Positions 33,359 through 40,759 of a stretch of DNA of 64,000 bases are shown piece by piece. The position numbers and the translations under genes are program-made. Source of the DNA: Desulfogranum japonicum DSM 18378 (GTDB lineage: Bacteria > Desulfobacterota > Desulfobulbia > Desulfobulbales > Desulfobulbaceae); NCBI RefSeq assembly GCF_000429945.1, contig NZ_AUCV01000031.1, forward strand, positions 1-64,000, written 5' to 3'. The notes below the pieces were generated by a model. The model had not been told where the DNA came from. It was given only the letters and a program-made list of their open reading frames with translations, and ran no database searches. Numbering within the stretch: position 1 is the first letter of the stretch; every line of letters starts with the position of its first letter.

Positions 33359-33690
33359 TAATCCGGTTATCCTTTTTTCGAGATCCCGAATATATGTGAG
33401 CCTCCCTCCATTTTCCAATCACTAAGCGGCATGTTTAAAGTGCCTCCACCGTAGACAACACCTTTAAAAGATGTTCGCCTTTTTCAAGGCCGAATGTTTT
33501 TCTCTCTGTTGTAATAGTTGAAGAGAGGACGTAAATCGTGCCCGTCCAAATAACATTTTGGGTAAACATCCTCCTGCCTACCGTCTAACAACGTCTGTCG
33601 ATAAAGGCGTTATCCAAAGCACGATTACAACCATTCATACACTTCTTGCAATACTTTTCCTGTTATGCAATGCCGTTGTAAAGACCTCTA
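33359..33690. other. Gene-free spacer with decayed frame
   Basis: No intact gene. On the minus strand a short frame ending near 33375 reads FKGVVYGGGTLNMPLSDWKM and then HIFGISKKG before a stop, which looks like the C-terminal end of a lost gene. The rest shows nothing. Confidence 0.3.
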
Positions 33691-33834
33691 GGAGTCTGTC
33701 GGAGAAAGCTCTTTTTTCCTCATATTCGTGTTGTTTCCAGAAAATCAATGCCCGTAACAGCAACTATATGGCTGAGCTTGATTTCTAGAAAATGCCTTAA
33801 TCTGAGAAAAAATAGCAATTCTCCGACAGACTCC
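33691..33834. repeat. MITE C, copy 1
   Basis: A 144-base element with perfect 16-base terminal inverted repeats, GGAGTCTGTCGGAGAA (33691-33706) and its complement (33819-33834). The interior has no gene. The copy at 34964-35105 is the same element in opposite orientation, roughly four fifths identical by eye. Confidence 0.8.
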
Positions 33835-34011
33835 CAAAGAATTGCATACCTTGATAATCATTAAAATATCGGGAATTCTCTTTGTCAAGGACAGTTCGAG
33901 AACATCAATATAAAACAGGGTGTCCAGACTGTTTTTCTAATTGGCTTTGGCCTGTGACCATTGCAGAAAAATGTTGACATCATATTTCAATTCTGTTTTT
34001 GTTTGGTTGTT

Positions 34012-34164
34012 TTAGGTGCTTGGCAACAAGCTAAGAGGGAATCCGGTGTAATTCCGGGACGGGCCCGCCGCTGTAACCGGGGACGAAAACTGCAAGATGT
34101 CACTGTCGTTTAACGATGGGAAGGCGCAGTAAGTAGATTGAACCGGAAGTCAGAAGACCTGCCT
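34012..34164 (+). promoter_or_regulatory. Cobalamin riboswitch 1
   Basis: The B12-box region is clear: GGGAATCCGGTGTAATTCCGG, GCCCGCCGCTGTAACCGGGG, then GGGAAGGC, and GGAAGTCAGAAGACCTGCC near the 3' end. All core elements of the AdoCbl aptamer are in order with usual spacing. A strong terminator hairpin follows at 34228-34268. No gene directly follows that terminator, so this copy either belongs to a lost gene or acts as the first of two tandem switches ahead of mutA. Confidence 0.88.
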
Positions 34165-34227
34165 ATAAACACTAGCTGCTTTCGCGAGGCAAACGAAACC
34201 AGTATCCGATACGAGGAATACCAGGGC

Positions 34228-34268
34228 ATCCCCGAATCATTTTTTAAGTGGTTCGGGGATTTTTTTTA
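34228..34268 (+). terminator. Rho-independent terminator of riboswitch 1
   Basis: A 12-base stem (ATCCCCGAATCA with its complement, one wobble pair), loop of nine bases and eight T residues. It lies 64 bases after the aptamer, the usual place of the expression platform. Confidence 0.85.
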
Positions 34269-34732
34269 TTTCCGAACGAGCATATTCAACACAAAACCTT
34301 GGCTATAAGCTGGTTGGCTGTGCTGCGCCACTTGCTCTTGTACATGAGATGTTTTCTTAGCCGTGGCTGAAACATAGAATCATGCTCCCTCCCTTTTTGT
34401 ATTTTGCCGAATACAGTTATAGAGGCTCTTTTTCCTACTCCACCCAGATAGTCAGCAGTACTGATATTACATAATGCCATGTCCTTATTTCTACTCCACA
34501 AACAGTGGGGAGGGGGAATCCGAATGTAATTTCATGGCTTTTGGGTAAAGAGTATTTTCGGCGGACATACGAGTTTCGGTGCCATTGAGGACACCTTGAA
34601 AAATTGCCAATTTACCTAACTTCCTTGCTGCACGCAAAATTTTATCCTCGGGGGTAAGCGTAGACTCCGATATCAGGTATATGCCTGTGGTGAAACTCAT
34701 CGTGCGCCTCGAATGTGAAAAAATACTTATTT
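34269..34732. other. Gene-free spacer between riboswitches
   Basis: No convincing gene. Minus-strand frames at 34286-34501 and 34491-34700 have no recognisable family and no good ribosome site; the second (LTPEDKILRAARKLGKL) has coding-like composition and may be a remnant. A B12-related gene may once have stood here behind riboswitch 1. Confidence 0.35.
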
Positions 34733-34734
34733 TT

Positions 34735-34888
34735 CAAGGTACTCATATATCGGCTTAATAGGGAAAACGGTGCAAAACCGTTGTGGTCCCGCCGCTGTAA
34801 CCGGGGACGAACGCTGTGATATGCCACTGACGTAATTGTTGGGAAGGCAAAGCAAGTAGAACGATCCGGAAGCCAGAAGACCTGCCGA
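34735..34888 (+). promoter_or_regulatory. Cobalamin riboswitch 2, upstream of mutA
   Basis: The second aptamer has AATAGGGAAAACGGTGCAAA, GTCCCGCCGCTGTAACCGGG, GGGAAGGCAAAGC and GGAAGCCAGAAGACCTGCC. Both aptamers share the conserved core but differ in the variable arms, so they are not a very recent duplication. Its likely expression platform, a terminator at 35179-35216, lies about 290 bases further, because a 142-base MITE is inserted between. The next gene is mutA. Confidence 0.88.
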
Positions 34889-34963
34889 AAATTTTTCTAT
34901 CAGCGCAAGCGGCGAGGATACCGGCTTGAACGCATGATGTGAATTTTTTATATCGAGGCATTA

Positions 34964-35105
34964 GGAGTCGGTCGGAGAATTGCAATTTTTTCTCAGATTA
35001 AGGCATTTTCAGCAAATCCAGCACAGCCATATAGTTGATATGCGAGCATTGGTTTACTGAAAATAACACAAATATTGGGAAAAAGAGCTTTCTCCGACAG
35101 ACTTC
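34964..35105. repeat. MITE C, copy 2, inside the mutA leader
   Basis: 142 bases with ends GGAGTCGGTCGGAGAA (34964-34979) and TTCTCCGACAGACTTC (35090-35105), inverted repeats with two mismatches. It is oriented opposite to the copy at 33691-33834. The position, between aptamer 2 and its terminator, means it must be transcribed as part of the mutA leader and would form a long hairpin. Confidence 0.8.
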
Positions 35106-35178
35106 TCGCAAGGTTTTCAGCATTGCCTAACGCCTTTGAAACAAAAAATTTACCAGGGTGATGAAGTAAACAGGGCGC

Positions 35179-35216
35179 AATCCCCCCTGACCAATTCAGG
35201 GCTGGGGGATTTTTTT
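35179..35216 (+). terminator. Terminator in the mutA leader
   Basis: AATCCCCC and CTGA pair with TCAG and GGGGGATT around a short loop with a small bulge, followed by seven T residues. It ends about 40 bases before the mutA ATG and is the likely OFF structure of riboswitch 2. Confidence 0.75.
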
Positions 35217-35255
35217 GCTTGTTTATCAAGTGTAATCATCAGTAAGGAGTAGACA

Positions 35256-37385
35256 ATGAGTGATGCGTTAGACATCCTGCAGGATTTTCCGGCTCACACC
35301 CATGCGGAATGGCTTGAAGCAGCACATACGTTGCTGAAAGGAAAACCATTTGACAAAGTGTTGATCAAGAAAACCTATGAAGGGATTGACATTCAGCCCA
35401 TGTATTTTCAGGCTGATCTTGAAAAGCTGGACCACATTGATGCCTTACCCGGCCAGGCTCCCTATGTTCGCGGAACAACAGCTTCAGGGGATCTGACAGA
35501 CTCATGGAAGATCGCCCAGGAGATTACCAATCCGGATCCGGAAGAATTCAATGAAGCTGTTGTTAATGATCTGAGTAAAGGGCAGGATTCTCTCAATATA
35601 CCTTTTGACAAGGCAACCAGGCAAGGGCTGAACCCAGACCAGGCCGACCTGGATGAAATTGGTGTTGGCGGCCTCTCAGTTGCCTCGGTGAATGATTTTG
35701 AGACAGCCCTTGATGGTGTTAATCTCACAGAGATTCCCTTTCTTGTTCACAGTGGTTTTTCAGGGGCGGGAATAGCGGCTCTTCTTGCTGCATTTGTGGA
35801 AAAACAAGGCAAGTCGCTTGCTGCAGTTACTGGTTGCCTGGGGGTTGATCCGCTTGGTTATCTTGCAGAGGAAGGCTCTCTGCCCATTTCCCTGGAAAAA
35901 GCCTATGATGAAATGGCTCAGCTCGTTCTTTGGGCAAAGGATAATGCTCCGGGGGTGAAAGTTATCTGCGTTCATGCTGAGCCTTACCAATACTCCGGTG
36001 GAAATGCTATACAGGAGGTTGCCTTTGGAGTGGCTACGGCTGTTGACTATATCCGGGCCATGCAAAAGCGCGGTGTAGATTTGGATACCGCGGCAAACGC
36101 TATCCTCTTTTCCTTTGCCATTGGTGCGGACTTCTTCATGGAAATCGCCAAATTCCGTGCTGCCCGCATGGTCTGGTGCCAGGTTGCCGAAGCTTTTGGT
36201 GTTGGCGAGGAAGGACAGAAAATGTCCATGCATGCCCGCACTTCCACCTGGAATAAAACCCACGTTGATCCATGGGTAAATATGTTGCGCGTTTCCACCG
36301 AGTCGTTTTCTGCCATAGCAGGCGGTGTGGATTCCATACATGTCGGGCCGTTTGATGAAATTTTCCGCCAGCCTAACGAGTTCTCCCGCAGGATTGCTCG
36401 AAACGTTCATATCGTGCTGAAAGAAGAAGGGCACTTTGACCGCGTGGTCGATCCAGCAGGCGGTTCCTGGTATGTGGAAACCATAACCAGCCAGCTTGCT
36501 GAAAAAATTTGGGAGCTCTTCCAGAACGTTGAAGGTAAAGGTGGATTGTTTGCCGCCCTTGGCGAGGGACTTCCGCAGGAGCAAACCGCAGAGGTTGCAG
36601 CAGCCCGTTTAAAAAACATCGCAGTGAGAAAAGATGTATTTGTCGGCACCAATATGTACCCCTATCTGGATGAGAAAAAAGTCGAGACCTATGATTTTGA
36701 TTTTGAAGCATTCCAGGAAGATCGTGCCGCACAGGTTGCTGCGGTGGAAAAAGGGCCTGATCTTGCATCCCTGTTGGCTTCTGTAACCGGTGAGCAGGCG
36801 AACATGAGTGCTGGGAGCGTTTGTGCCGCTGTTAAAGCCGCCGGACAAGGGGCAAGTCTTGGCGAACTGACTGCTGCATTTCGTCAGGGTGCTGCAGGGA
36901 GTGAACGTATCAAACCGCTTCACATCCACCGAGGCGCCGAGCCTTTTGAAAAGCTTCGCCGCGATACTGAAGCCTATATCGAAAAGACGGGCGAAGCTCC
37001 CAAGCTTTTCCTGGCCAACAATGGGCCTATTCCAAAACATAAGGCCCGTGCAGATTTCTCCACCGGCTTTTTTAATGTAGCTGCCTTTGAAACCATTGCG
37101 AATAAAGGCTTTGCCACTCCGGAAGAAGCCGCCGATGCAGCCCTCGAATCCGGTGCAAAGGCAGTGATTATCACAGGTACGGATGATATGTACCCCGAGG
37201 TTGTCCCGGTTATTGCGAAAAAACTCAAGGCAGCTGATCCCAATATCATGATTATCCTCGCTGGATATCCAAAGGATCATATTGAGGCCTTTAAGGAAGC
37301 GGGTGTTGATGAATTTCTGCATGTACGCGCCAATGCACTGAGTCTGCTTGGCAACCTGCAAAAGCATATGGGGGTGGTAGCATGA
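35256..37385 (+). CDS. mutA: Methylmalonyl-CoA mutase small (beta) subunit
   Basis: A 709-residue homologue of the MutA subunit. The TIM-barrel part covers residues 1-560 ([63 protein letters not shown]). The C-terminal flavodoxin-like domain (585-709) lacks the DxHxxG cobalamin motif, as expected for the non-catalytic subunit. The ATG is preceded by AAGGAG at six bases. It overlaps mutB by four bases and forms the heterodimer that interconverts succinyl-CoA and (R)-methylmalonyl-CoA. In this kind of organism the pathway serves propionate formation or oxidation. Expression is probably under riboswitch 2. Confidence 0.93.
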
Positions 37386-39565
37386 TGAATCCTGATTTTA
37401 CCAAAATGGTGTTTAACACCGGCAAGCCGCAGATGAGCTACGACAAATGGGCTGCCAATATCCAGAAAGAAACCGGCATGACGGCCGAAGACCTGGTCTG
37501 GAAAACCGTTGAGCAGATTGATGTCAAGCCCATGTACACCCGCAATGATTATGACGGACTGGATCACCTGGGGTATCATGCAGGTATACCGCCGTATCTC
37601 CGTGGCCCCTATGCAACCATGTTTGTCATGCGTCCCTGGACGGTTCGCCAGTATGCGGGGTTCTCCACAGCTGAAGAGAGTAATGCCTTCTACCGTAAAA
37701 ACCTGGCAGCAGGTCAGAAAGGTCTGTCCATTGCTTTTGACCTGGCTACCCACCGAGGTTACGATTCCGACCACCCCAGGGTTGTAGGTGATGTTGGCAA
37801 GGCCGGGGTTGCGGTTGATTCCATCCTGGATATGAACATCCTTTTTGATGGTATCCCGCTGGATCAGATGACGGTATCCATGACCATGAATGGCGCGGTG
37901 CTGCCCATTCTCTCCTTTTACATCGTTGCTGCAGAAGAGCAGGGCGTGCGCCAGGATCAGCTCGGCGGCACCATTCAGAACGATATCCTCAAGGAATACA
38001 TGGTGCGGAATACCTATATCTATCCGCCGGCTGAATCCATGCGGATAATCTCTGACATCTTTTCCTATACCGCCCAGAACATGCCCAAGTACAACTCCAT
38101 CAGTATTTCCGGATACCATATGGAGGAGGCCGGTGCCACTTCAGATATTGAAATGGCCTATACCCTTGCCGATGGCTGGGATTACGCCCGTGCGGGGGTA
38201 AATGCCGGGATGAGTATTGATAAGTTTGCCCCGCGGCTGTCCTTTTTCTGGGCACAGGGCATGAACTATTTCATGGAGATCGCCAAGATGCGTGCAGCTC
38301 GCGTAATCTGGGCAAAAATTATCAAAACTTTTAACCCCGAGAACGTGAAGTCGCTTGCCCTGCGTACCCACAGCCAGACCTCGGGATGGTCGCTTACCGA
38401 AGGCGACCCCTTCAACAATGTCTGCCGTACCACCATTGAGGCCATGGCTGCTGCTTTAGGACATACCCAGTCCATGCACACCAACTCCCTGGATGAGGCG
38501 ATTGCACTGCCAACAGACTTCTCAGCCCGTATTGCCCGTAACACCCAGTTGTATCTGCAGGATGAAACCAATATCTGTAGACCTGCTGACCCCTGGGGCG
38601 GTTCCTATTACGTAGAAGCACTTACCGGTGCTATAATGAAGAGGGCCTGGGGACACATCATGGAGGTTGAGAAACTTGGCGGCATGGCCAAAGCCATTGA
38701 GACCGGCTTGCCCAAGATGCGCATTGAAGAGGCAGCGGCCCGTCGTCAGGCAGGGATTGATTCCGGTAGCGAGAAAATTATCGGTGTTAACACCTATTGT
38801 CTTGATGAAGAGGAAGCGCTGGATACTCTTGAAGTTGACAACACAGTGGTCCGCGAGGCTCAGCTCAAGCGGCTTGCCAAGCTCAGGGAGATGCGCGATG
38901 AAAGCAAATGCCGTCAGTCTTTGGAAGCACTGACCAAATGCGCTGAAACCGGAGAAGGCAACCTGCTGGCACTGTCCATTGAAGCAGCCCGTGCGCGGGC
39001 AACACTCGGAGAGATTTCCGATGCACTTGAAAAGCCTTGGGGGAGACATGTTGCTGTGATTCGATCTATATCTGGAATCTATAAGGCTGAGTTCAGCGAG
39101 CAGGAAGAAATGGAAAAGGTTATCAAGATGACCAAAGATTTCGAGGCAAAAGAAGGGCGCCGTCCTCGTATCATGGTTGCCAAGCTTGGGCAGGATGGTC
39201 ACGACCGTGGTGCCAAGGTTATCTCCACAGCCTTTGCCGATCTTGGCTTTGACGTCGACGTCGGACCGCTTTTCCAGACGCCGGAAGAAGCAGCGCGTCA
39301 GGCCGTTGAAAACGACTGTCACATCATTGGTTTCAGTTCGCTTGCCGCAGGTCACAAAACCTTGTTGCCTGCTCTTGTCCAGGAACTGGAAAAACTGGGG
39401 CGTCCGGATATCATGGCCGTCATCGGCGGAGTTATTCCGGCCCCTGACTATGAATTTCTGTATGAAAGCGGGGCAGCGGCCATCTTCGGACCGGGTACGG
39501 TTATTCCGGTAGCAGCGCAGAAGGTGCTGGAGGAGCTCAACGCCAGATTACATCCTGACGACTAA
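37382..39565 (+). CDS. mutB: Methylmalonyl-CoA mutase large (alpha) subunit
   Basis: A 727-residue catalytic subunit. The substrate barrel shows [38 protein letters not shown] and [20 protein letters not shown]. The C-terminal cobalamin domain has [12 protein letters not shown] near residue 603, the DxHxxG motif whose histidine replaces dimethylbenzimidazole, and [12 protein letters not shown] near the end. All residues expected of an active AdoCbl mutase are present. The start codon (37382, or the next ATG at 37385) overlaps the mutA stop. Confidence 0.95.
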
Positions 39566-39605: not shown

Positions 39606-39628
39606 AAATTTTAACTGAGGGAGTGCAT

Positions 39629-40759
39629 ATGGGAAATGATGAAAAACGCCCATCCTGGGTTCCGGAAGGTGGTGCCGAAGGATTTGCCTGCAGCGTTATG
39701 GACGGTGTGGCAGCAGGCCATGATGGAATCAGTTCGTATAAGACAGCAGGAAAAAAGAAGAAAATAAGTAAATATAGCCGGCCGAAGTTGACCCCTGCAC
39801 AACTTGCAGAAGGTGTCCTTAATCGGGATCGCGGTTTGCTTGGCCGTGCCATAACCCTGGCTGAAAGTAATTTACCGGCTCATGTTGATGAGGCTCAGGA
39901 AGTTCTGAAAACGTTGCTGCCCTATACCGGTAAGTCAATGCGGGTGGGAATCACGGGCGTACCGGGGGTTGGCAAGAGTACCTTTATTGAGTCTCTTGGG
40001 TACTATTTGCTTAATAATGGCTACAAGGTAGCGGTTTTGGCCGTTGATCCCAGCAGCTCAAAATCCGGCGGGAGTATTCTTGGTGATAAAACCAGGATGG
40101 AGCGTATCGGTCGCGACGAGCGTTGTTTTATCCGGCCTTCACCATCAAGCGGCACCCTGGGCGGGGTTGCCCGAAAAACCAGGGAGACCATGCTCATCTG
40201 TGAGGCTGCAGGTTTTGATGTGATCTTGGTTGAAACCGTTGGCGTAGGGCAGAGTGAAACCACTGTACGTTCCATGGTGGATTTTTTCCTTCTGCTCATG
40301 CTGGCTGGTGCCGGTGATGAACTGCAGGGTATCAAAAAGGGGATCATGGAGCTTGCCGATGCCCTGATTATAAACAAAGCGGACGGTGATAATGAGCTGC
40401 CCGCCAAGCTGGCCCGTAATGAATATGAGCGGGCCATGCATTATCTGCAGCCATCCACTGAAGGCTGGGTGTCCCACGCGTTCACTTGCTCTGCAATCAA
40501 GGACAAGGGTATCTATGACATCTGGAAGGTGATCCTCAAGTTCAAGGAGGTCACCACCAAATCCGGTGTGTTTGACAATCACCGCAGGCAGCAGAATATC
40601 AACTGGGTGCATGATATGGTGGATGAGCACCTGCGTAACCTGTTTACCCGGCATCCCGAAATAATTAAGGCCCTGCCTGATATTGAAAAGCGGGTGGCAG
40701 ACGAAGAACTGCCGGCAGTTTCTGCGGTTAAGAAGTTGATCCAGATATTTGAGAAGTAA
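39629..40759 (+). CDS. meaB: Methylmalonyl-CoA mutase-associated GTPase MeaB
   Basis: A 376-residue G3E-family GTPase. Walker A GITGVPGVGKSTFIE near residue 108, switch and base-recognition motifs DPSSSKSGGSILGDKTRM, VETVGVGQSE and NKADG are intact. MeaB loads AdoCbl into the mutase and protects it from inactivation. An N-terminal extension of about 60 residues rich in lysine precedes the usual start of the family. The ATG at 39629 follows AGGGAG at five bases; the GTG two codons earlier would overlap that site. Last gene of the mutase operon. Confidence 0.93.
   Translation: MGNDEKRPSWVPEGGAEGFACSVMDGVAAGHDGISSYKTAGKKKKISKYSRPKLTPAQLAEGVLNRDRGLLGRAITLAESNLPAHVDEAQEVLKTLLPYTGKSMRVGITGVPGVGKSTFIESLGYYLLNNGYKVAVLAVDPSSSKSGGSILGDKTRMERIGRDERCFIRPSPSSGTLGGVARKTRETMLICEAAGFDVILVETVGVGQSETTVRSMVDFFLLLMLAGAGDELQGIKKGIMELADALIINKADGDNELPAKLARNEYERAMHYLQPSTEGWVSHAFTCSAIKDKGIYDIWKVILKFKEVTTKSGVFDNHRRQQNINWVHDMVDEHLRNLFTRHPEIIKALPDIEKRVADEELPAVSAVKKLIQIFEK

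Follow-up and report, generated by a model that had tools for sequence, protein, structure and literature searches.

The 64,000-nt window analyzed here, which denotes the whole stretch of DNA under study from Desulfogranum japonicum (genome G000), a sulfate reducer related to Desulfobulbus, carries on its forward strand the genes for a two-subunit methylmalonyl-CoA mutase and its accessory GTPase. The small subunit is encoded by mutA (35256-37385), the large subunit with its B12-binding domain by mutB (37382-39565; PRK09426, 1274 bits; Pfam PF02310; PDB 1req_A) and the mutase-associated GTPase by meaB (39623-40759, start codon provisional; PRK09435, 487 bits). MutB and MeaB score above their NCBIfam cut-offs; MutA lies under its own (TIGR00642, 471 against 617 bits) but is a PF01642 protein adjoining MutB. 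The same genome also encodes another methylmalonyl-CoA mutase, a single-chain enzyme (714 aa, 1215 bits; L163, G000:C21:41500-49500) with its own epimerase, MeaB and CoA-transferase-like genes, and none of the 14 RF00174 matches of the genome, 13 of them over the cut-off, lies on that contig.

An initial annotation of the locus had placed two cobalamin riboswitches before mutA-mutB-meaB, and Rfam bears this out. Riboswitch 1 (RS1) occupies 33997-34180 (123.1 bits, E 2e-30) and riboswitch 2 (RS2) 34720-34903 (107.3 bits, E 7e-26), both on the forward strand and both matching the whole RF00174 model (positions 1-189) above its gathering score of 31.5. Two complete switches on one strand before a single gene constitute a tandem riboswitch leader. 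The gap between them is long, at 539 nt, and the open reading frame list holds no frame of at least 80 aa between 33199 and 35256. Folding places a P13 hairpin after each aptamer, at 34175-34203 for RS1 and at 34899-34938 for RS2 (-13.1 kcal/mol, z -0.95). The loop of the first (34185-34193, CGAGGCAAA) could pair with L5 GCCCG and that of the second (34913-34920, CGAGGAUA) with L5 UCCCG, giving GCCCG:CGaGGC in RS1 and UCCCG:CGaGGA in RS2, each with five pairs and one bulge, although the four-pair motif is common by chance. It occurs in 27 of 29 own L5-L13 pairs (four of 33 rows were dropped for lack of a parsed L5), and also in 257 of 360 mismatched pairs and in 50% of shuffled platforms; the motif was therefore set aside as evidence by itself.

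Each switch had also been assigned a terminator. For RS1 this holds: intrinsic terminator 1 with its U-tract (34228-34268, hairpin 34228-34260) was found by both terminator scan and folding, starts 47 nt after the aptamer and is strong (-21.2 kcal/mol, z -7.1, none of 200 shuffles equally stable). For RS2 it holds in outline. Terminator 2 (35179-35216), which starts 275 nt after its aptamer, is weak (-15.4 kcal/mol, z -1.0, 31 of 200 shuffles equally stable), is absent from the terminator-scan list and falls under the threshold of the terminator folding analysis, yet a stem (AAUCCCCC/GGGGGAUU) and U-tract are recognizable and the position is conserved. Its counterparts in the relatives G045 (-27.8) and G038 (-26.4) are more stable.

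The leader has also been invaded by a MITE-like repeat, a family of about 147 bp with terminal inverted repeats. Copy 1 (33690-33837, reverse strand) lies upstream of the leader and is an inverted copy of copy 2 (34962-35106, forward strand), which repeat comparison and folding place inside leader 2. The start of the riboswitch region at 33691, as first annotated, thus falls in copy 1 and outside RS1. With 40 of 120 candidates scored, the family has at least 42 matches at no fewer than 40 places in the genome, so further copies are possible. Copy 2 sits in the loop of a hairpin, H2 (arms 34939-34949 and 35143-35153), that has counterparts of different sequence in the relatives G049, G045 and G046.

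This insertion, together with the weakness of terminator 2, raises the prospect that the second gate is dead in this strain, leaving mutA to RS1 alone or to no control. We regard that as doubtful. The repeat (34961-35107) folds on its own (-50.3 kcal/mol, z -6.5), and in the predicted fold H2 and terminator 2 persist around it, while P13 is not fully preserved in the minimum-energy fold of the whole MITE-bearing stretch. The repeat is missing from the leader of G049, which is collinear in other respects and whose terminator 2 is likewise weak (-17.0, z -1.8). Furthermore, aptamer 2 still scores 107 bits. We therefore favor two working gates over a single surviving one.

Conservation of the switch before mutA

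A MutA profile search of 257 genomes of the class returned 14 full-length orthologues (>1200 bits), all in the family of the window; the next matches, at about 410 bits, are another mutase, and a fifteenth MutA (G048) is a 3' fragment at a contig end without upstream sequence. A same-strand RF00174 aptamer lies directly upstream of all 14 full-length orthologues, as the initial annotation had proposed to look for, and likewise before mutA in Desulfobulbus rhabdoformis DSM 8777, whose leader is also tandem. RS2 thus belongs to mutA-mutB-meaB. In these 15 leaders the last aptamer is separated from mutA by merely about 100-350 nt and no B12-transport gene intervenes; the presence of one in close relatives had been raised as a possible objection. 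At least two aptamers are present in ten of the 14 leaders (three in G026) and one in G045, G046 and G019, while in G032 the contig starts 23 nt before the sole visible aptamer. Tandem or triple switches are accordingly found in at least 11 of the 15 leaders. A terminator after the last switch was found in 11 of the 15, and none was seen in the other four. By comparison, no RF00174 match was present at 16 loci of other mutases, paralogues or fragments in the family, one of which has almost no upstream sequence. The gate before mutA is real, conserved and mostly doubled.

Among the best 80 loci listed from named genomes, three have an aptamer upstream of mutA: those of D. rhabdoformis, a Thalassospira sp. 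(L071, 38 bits) and a Rhodospirillales MAG (L076, 39 bits, partial). Seven of the 80 have less than 300 nt upstream and are unable to reveal an aptamer, and the RF00174 match at one further locus (L116) is downstream of mutA. The two weak aptamers of Thalassospira-type Alphaproteobacteria stand directly before mutA (L071 2199-2377; L076 2248-2346). The arrangement thus occurs in the Alphaproteobacteria as well, with a probably independent origin.

Two other loci deserve mention. In G021, positions 1-170 of a contig (L212, G021:C81) hold what is left of a mutA-proximal switch: P13 and the terminator are present, but no mutase gene follows; this relic, whose contig starts inside the aptamer, is apparently an orphan riboswitch left by gene loss. 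In G018, nrdD for the anaerobic ribonucleotide reductase (L166 8670-10817) is divergent from mutA, and a separate cobalamin aptamer lies upstream of nrdD on its strand (L027 4441-4641).

Promoter and origins of the two switches

A candidate -35 box, TTGACA, is located at 33974-33979 on the forward strand ahead of RS1, with no good -10 box. Across the leaders, 12 of 14 first aptamers have an exact TTGACA nearby as against none of 12 later ones (Fisher p 1e-5), when counted up to 70 nt upstream of or 10 nt inside the aptamer and with G032 skipped for its contig end; the background is 25 of 687 windows. In the single-switch leaders of G045 and G046 the box lies directly before the sole aptamer, and the leaders of G019 and G027 have none. 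A scan with approximate sigma-70 matrices gave p 0.08 at the window's box and poor -10 boxes. Most of its scores fell inside the shuffle range, and it was rejected; first and later aptamers are told apart by the exact TTGACA count alone. The start codon of mutA lies just 39 nt past terminator 2, which leaves little room for the separate promoter after 35216 that had been considered as a driver of mutA. The distribution of the box suggests one promoter before the first switch, with two gates in series behind it.

A tree of 45 aptamers places the 15 mutA-proximal aptamers in one clade (93/71), which rises to 100/100 after removal of six long-branch rows. The 12 upstream aptamers, in contrast, are rejected as a single clade (p-AU 7e-62), whereas the ten outside G000 and G049 are allowed to form one (p 0.22). 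In the same tree, RS1 of the window falls together (99/86) with a switch that precedes a TonB-dependent receptor gene elsewhere in the D. japonicum genome. By this phylogeny, RS2 is old and vertically inherited, and the upstream switch has more than one origin, that of the window's RS1 being different from that of the sister group's.

The relationship to the receptor gene extends beyond the aptamer. The forward-strand stretch 33943-34581, comprising promoter region, RS1, terminator 1 and spacer, is paralogous to the TonB-receptor leader (L164, G000:C14) at 79.5% identity over 662 bp. The same stretch is found before mutA in G049 (82% over 629 bp), and that genome, which is 68% complete, has it before mutA only. 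Measured against NCBIfam models, the receptor itself stays under the cut-off both as a B12 receptor (138 against 600) and as a siderophore receptor (164 against 224). The suggestion that a transporter leader had been captured was thus right in that a transporter-type leader is involved; it concerns RS1 rather than RS2, and the receptor gene is still in the genome. Copying in the other direction, from the mutA locus to the receptor gene, also fits the tree; alternatively, RS1 may have arisen when an older upstream switch underwent gene conversion. A plasmid search with RS1 returned four records covering at most 40% of the query. The parts of the leader, their order, their conservation, their phylogeny and this paralogy are all read directly from the DNA.

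Could RS1 be a duplication-derived orphan, with a promoter between the aptamers driving mutA so that RS2 alone matters? The paralogy of RS1 and its spacer to the receptor leader and the 539-nt gap would both fit, and the initial annotation had offered an orphan as one possibility and the first half of a tandem gate as the other. We consider the orphan unlikely, because the TTGACA box precedes 12 of 14 first aptamers and none of the 12 later ones and because tandems recur, from more than one origin, in most of the leaders. The second possibility, RS1 as the first gate of a tandem, is the one retained here.

Tandem riboswitches for the same ligand, adenosylcobalamin (AdoCbl) included, are known, and a steeper response is predicted for them ('Architectures and complex functions of tandem riboswitches', PMC9481103). 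The mutA leaders resemble those systems in that switches for one ligand follow one another and every switch has an expression platform to itself. They differ in the mutA target, in the triple case of G026 and in the several origins of the upstream partner, which the accessible part of that article does not describe. Several origins of an upstream switch at one operon amount to a natural experiment on the evolution of tandem riboswitches. Our literature search, which covered mostly journals outside subscription, turned up no earlier description of cobalamin switches in tandem upstream of mutA. Each element of the leader has known counterparts; to our knowledge, their combination and its history are new.

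At six loci (L027, L028, L029, L031, L032 and L055), a GGTCC before aptamer 2 (GGTCT in L055) is by eye complementary to a GGACC loop in the P13 of switch 1. This may be a contact between the two switch units.

Sign of the response and its possible purpose

B12 riboswitches are best known for switching off B12 synthesis, B12 uptake and B12-independent isozymes. A switch before a B12-dependent mutase had accordingly been taken as lacking precedent. In the reporter assays of Kennedy et al. (2022, PMC9600662), however, a mutA riboswitch of Veillonella parvula was among 38 that proved repressing; their discussion is silent on why a B12-dependent mutase is repressed. V. parvula, with two annotated MCM homologues (PMC6759758), resembles D. 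japonicum in carrying a cobalamin switch before a methylmalonyl-CoA mutase gene and in having two mutases. It belongs to another phylum, its corrinoid response was measured whereas that of the D. japonicum switches is predicted, and the accessible text does not mention a tandem.

Two published designs allow the sign of a response to be read from the expression platform. In the repressing metE switch of Priestia megaterium, an antiterminator formed by P13 and the terminator's 5' side excludes P13, as shown by mutation (Procknow et al. 2023, PMC10653944). In the activating cobT switch of Alkalihalobacillus halodurans, P13 is itself the antiterminator and its 3' side is the 5' side of the terminator (PMC10653944). 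Equilibrium folding with and without aptamer or L13 constraints gave terminator probabilities of 0.62-1.00 everywhere, controls included, and was uninformative. Transfer of Rfam pairs to all aptamers by alignment mapped the P6 region poorly and was not used. The informative folds were those of transcripts cut before the 3' strand of the terminator.

In these folds, all seven last-switch platforms of one genus group (G018, G033, G017, G032, G038, G037 and D. rhabdoformis) pair bases of P13 with the 5' flank and 5' strand of the terminator, giving a long antiterminator whose formation excludes P13. The pairs are GGUUCCC with GGGAACC and GGCC with GGUC or GGCC (GCC in G032). Once the aptamer is included, the favored partner in the G032 ensemble is a local one (TGGGG), and in G017 and G038 part of the pairing goes to the aptamer (0.25 and 0.16). 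Residues 14-39 of the antiterminator segment are invariant across the seven. A 23-nt probe from it is exact in 7 of 73 genomes, six times before mutA and once in the G021 relic, and with two or three mismatches it occurs in four more genomes, once (G026) before mutA. The seven platforms are thus like that of P. megaterium metE in the makeup of their antiterminator, although metE encodes a B12-independent isozyme, and this match to a published repressing design favors an OFF response.

The mutually exclusive folds that had been anticipated for the window are predicted for the platforms of the seven relatives, whereas no P13-exclusive antiterminator of the metE type was found in the fold of the window's own RS2 platform. 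Nested folds of the RS2 leaders of the window, G049, G045 and G046 accommodate P13, H2 and a local antiterminator together. Of the 12 upstream, RS1-type switches, nine have the 5' strand of the terminator paired for the most part with bases of the aptamer. RS1 of the window is among the other three, and its predicted antiterminator is weak (terminator 5' strand 0.47 paired). An OFF response is nonetheless favored for the window's RS2, because its leader has homologues of the repressing type and because RS1 stands in series before it.

Taken together, we think it likely that both riboswitches are repressing and act in series on one transcript, each with its own terminator, before mutA-mutB-meaB. 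Here we infer the ligand, the sign of the response, the single promoter and the physiological purpose. The transcript would begin just before RS1 and pass the gates of RS1 and RS2 before reaching the three genes. An adenosyl-corrinoid on the aptamer would favor the L5-L13 kissing loop and P13; with P13 formed, the antiterminator would be lost and the terminator would halt transcription. The operon would thus be read when free cofactor is scarce, and two serial gates should give a lower or steeper response than one.

The opposite sign for RS2, in which AdoCbl permits read-through, the mutase is made only with its cofactor and an OFF RS1 turns the pair into a band-pass, had been entertained from the start and would be economical, like the pocR switch of Listeria, which acts through antisense (PMC9943018). 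P13 is compatible with the local antiterminator in G000, G049, G045 and G046, and activating-type anatomy does exist in the family, before a ThiC-family gene. The mutA leaders share P13, an intrinsic terminator and a possible kissing loop with the A. halodurans cobT switch; there, however, P13 shares terminator bases, whereas terminators of the mutA leaders start 46-275 nt after the aptamer (46-135 nt in the relatives) without P13 overlap. An ON response through alternating segments in G000-like leaders was also rejected, since in our reading of the folds the long H2 makes an alternative hairpin unlikely. With the activating overlap absent, the homologous leaders of the sister group of repressing type, the V. 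parvula mutA riboswitch repressing and an OFF RS1 in series that would hold mutA off nearly always, an ON reading for this genome's RS2 is unlikely and is the rival we rank last. The mutA gate is most probably repressing.

The production of apoenzyme at low cofactor looks uneconomical and is a counterpoint to repression. Extra apoenzyme may compensate by keeping flux when the cofactor is scarce; alternatively, the switch may serve a hand-over between mutase isozymes. The purpose of the serial repressing gates would then be either more mutase at AdoCbl shortage or a hand-over from the second, unswitched mutase. By score pattern, a second mutase is present in 11 of the 14 mutA genomes. It was also not seen in G036 and G049, both incomplete, and G019, at 99% completeness, has none and carries the switch nonetheless. 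An isozyme swap was therefore rejected as a requirement, and it cannot explain everything. A probably repressing, often doubled gate before a B12-dependent catabolic enzyme thus poses a testable choice between more apoenzyme and a swap of two B12-dependent mutases. As a tentative and more far-reaching proposal, which we would put at rather less than an even chance, the Desulfobulbaceae may run a scarcity program in which MutAB-MeaB is de-repressed as free AdoCbl falls, adding to or replacing the unswitched single-chain mutase. Selection for a sharp threshold would have built the tandem gate repeatedly, here from a promoter-riboswitch unit shared with the TonB-receptor gene.

Candidate activating leaders before a ThiC-family gene

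Another cobalamin switch of the D. japonicum genome (L013, G000:C18:15426-18634) has the activating anatomy, with P13 formed by CAGAAC/GUUCUG and its 3' arm within the 5' arm of the terminator. The gene that follows is of the ThiC family (ThiC 560 bits, cut-off 410; the lower-ligand enzyme BzaB, 492 bits, under its cut-off of 700). A cobalamin aptamer is present upstream at all 20 of the relatives' loci of this gene that were scanned, out of 29 further ones. In 17 of the resulting 21 leaders, own genome included, the order is a P13 arm, a CGATGG loop (GTGATGG in two), AAAGG or AAAAGG, and the second P13 arm; the relatives' loci with this layout are L216-L227 and L229-L232. The other four have a different platform. 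Among the 17, the arm common to P13 and the terminator was located by script in 12 and by eye in three more, and two are without a U-tract hairpin. The P13 arms covary among the leaders (GGAAC/GUUCC, AGAAC/GUUCU). We propose these leaders as a candidate family of activating corrinoid riboswitches. They would offer many natural candidates for an activating class of which one member was known according to the 2023 paper.

Two more cobalamin switches in the D. japonicum genome (L011 and L012) precede genes for a MATE-family efflux protein and a sodium/solute-symporter-like protein, both of which are unusual targets.
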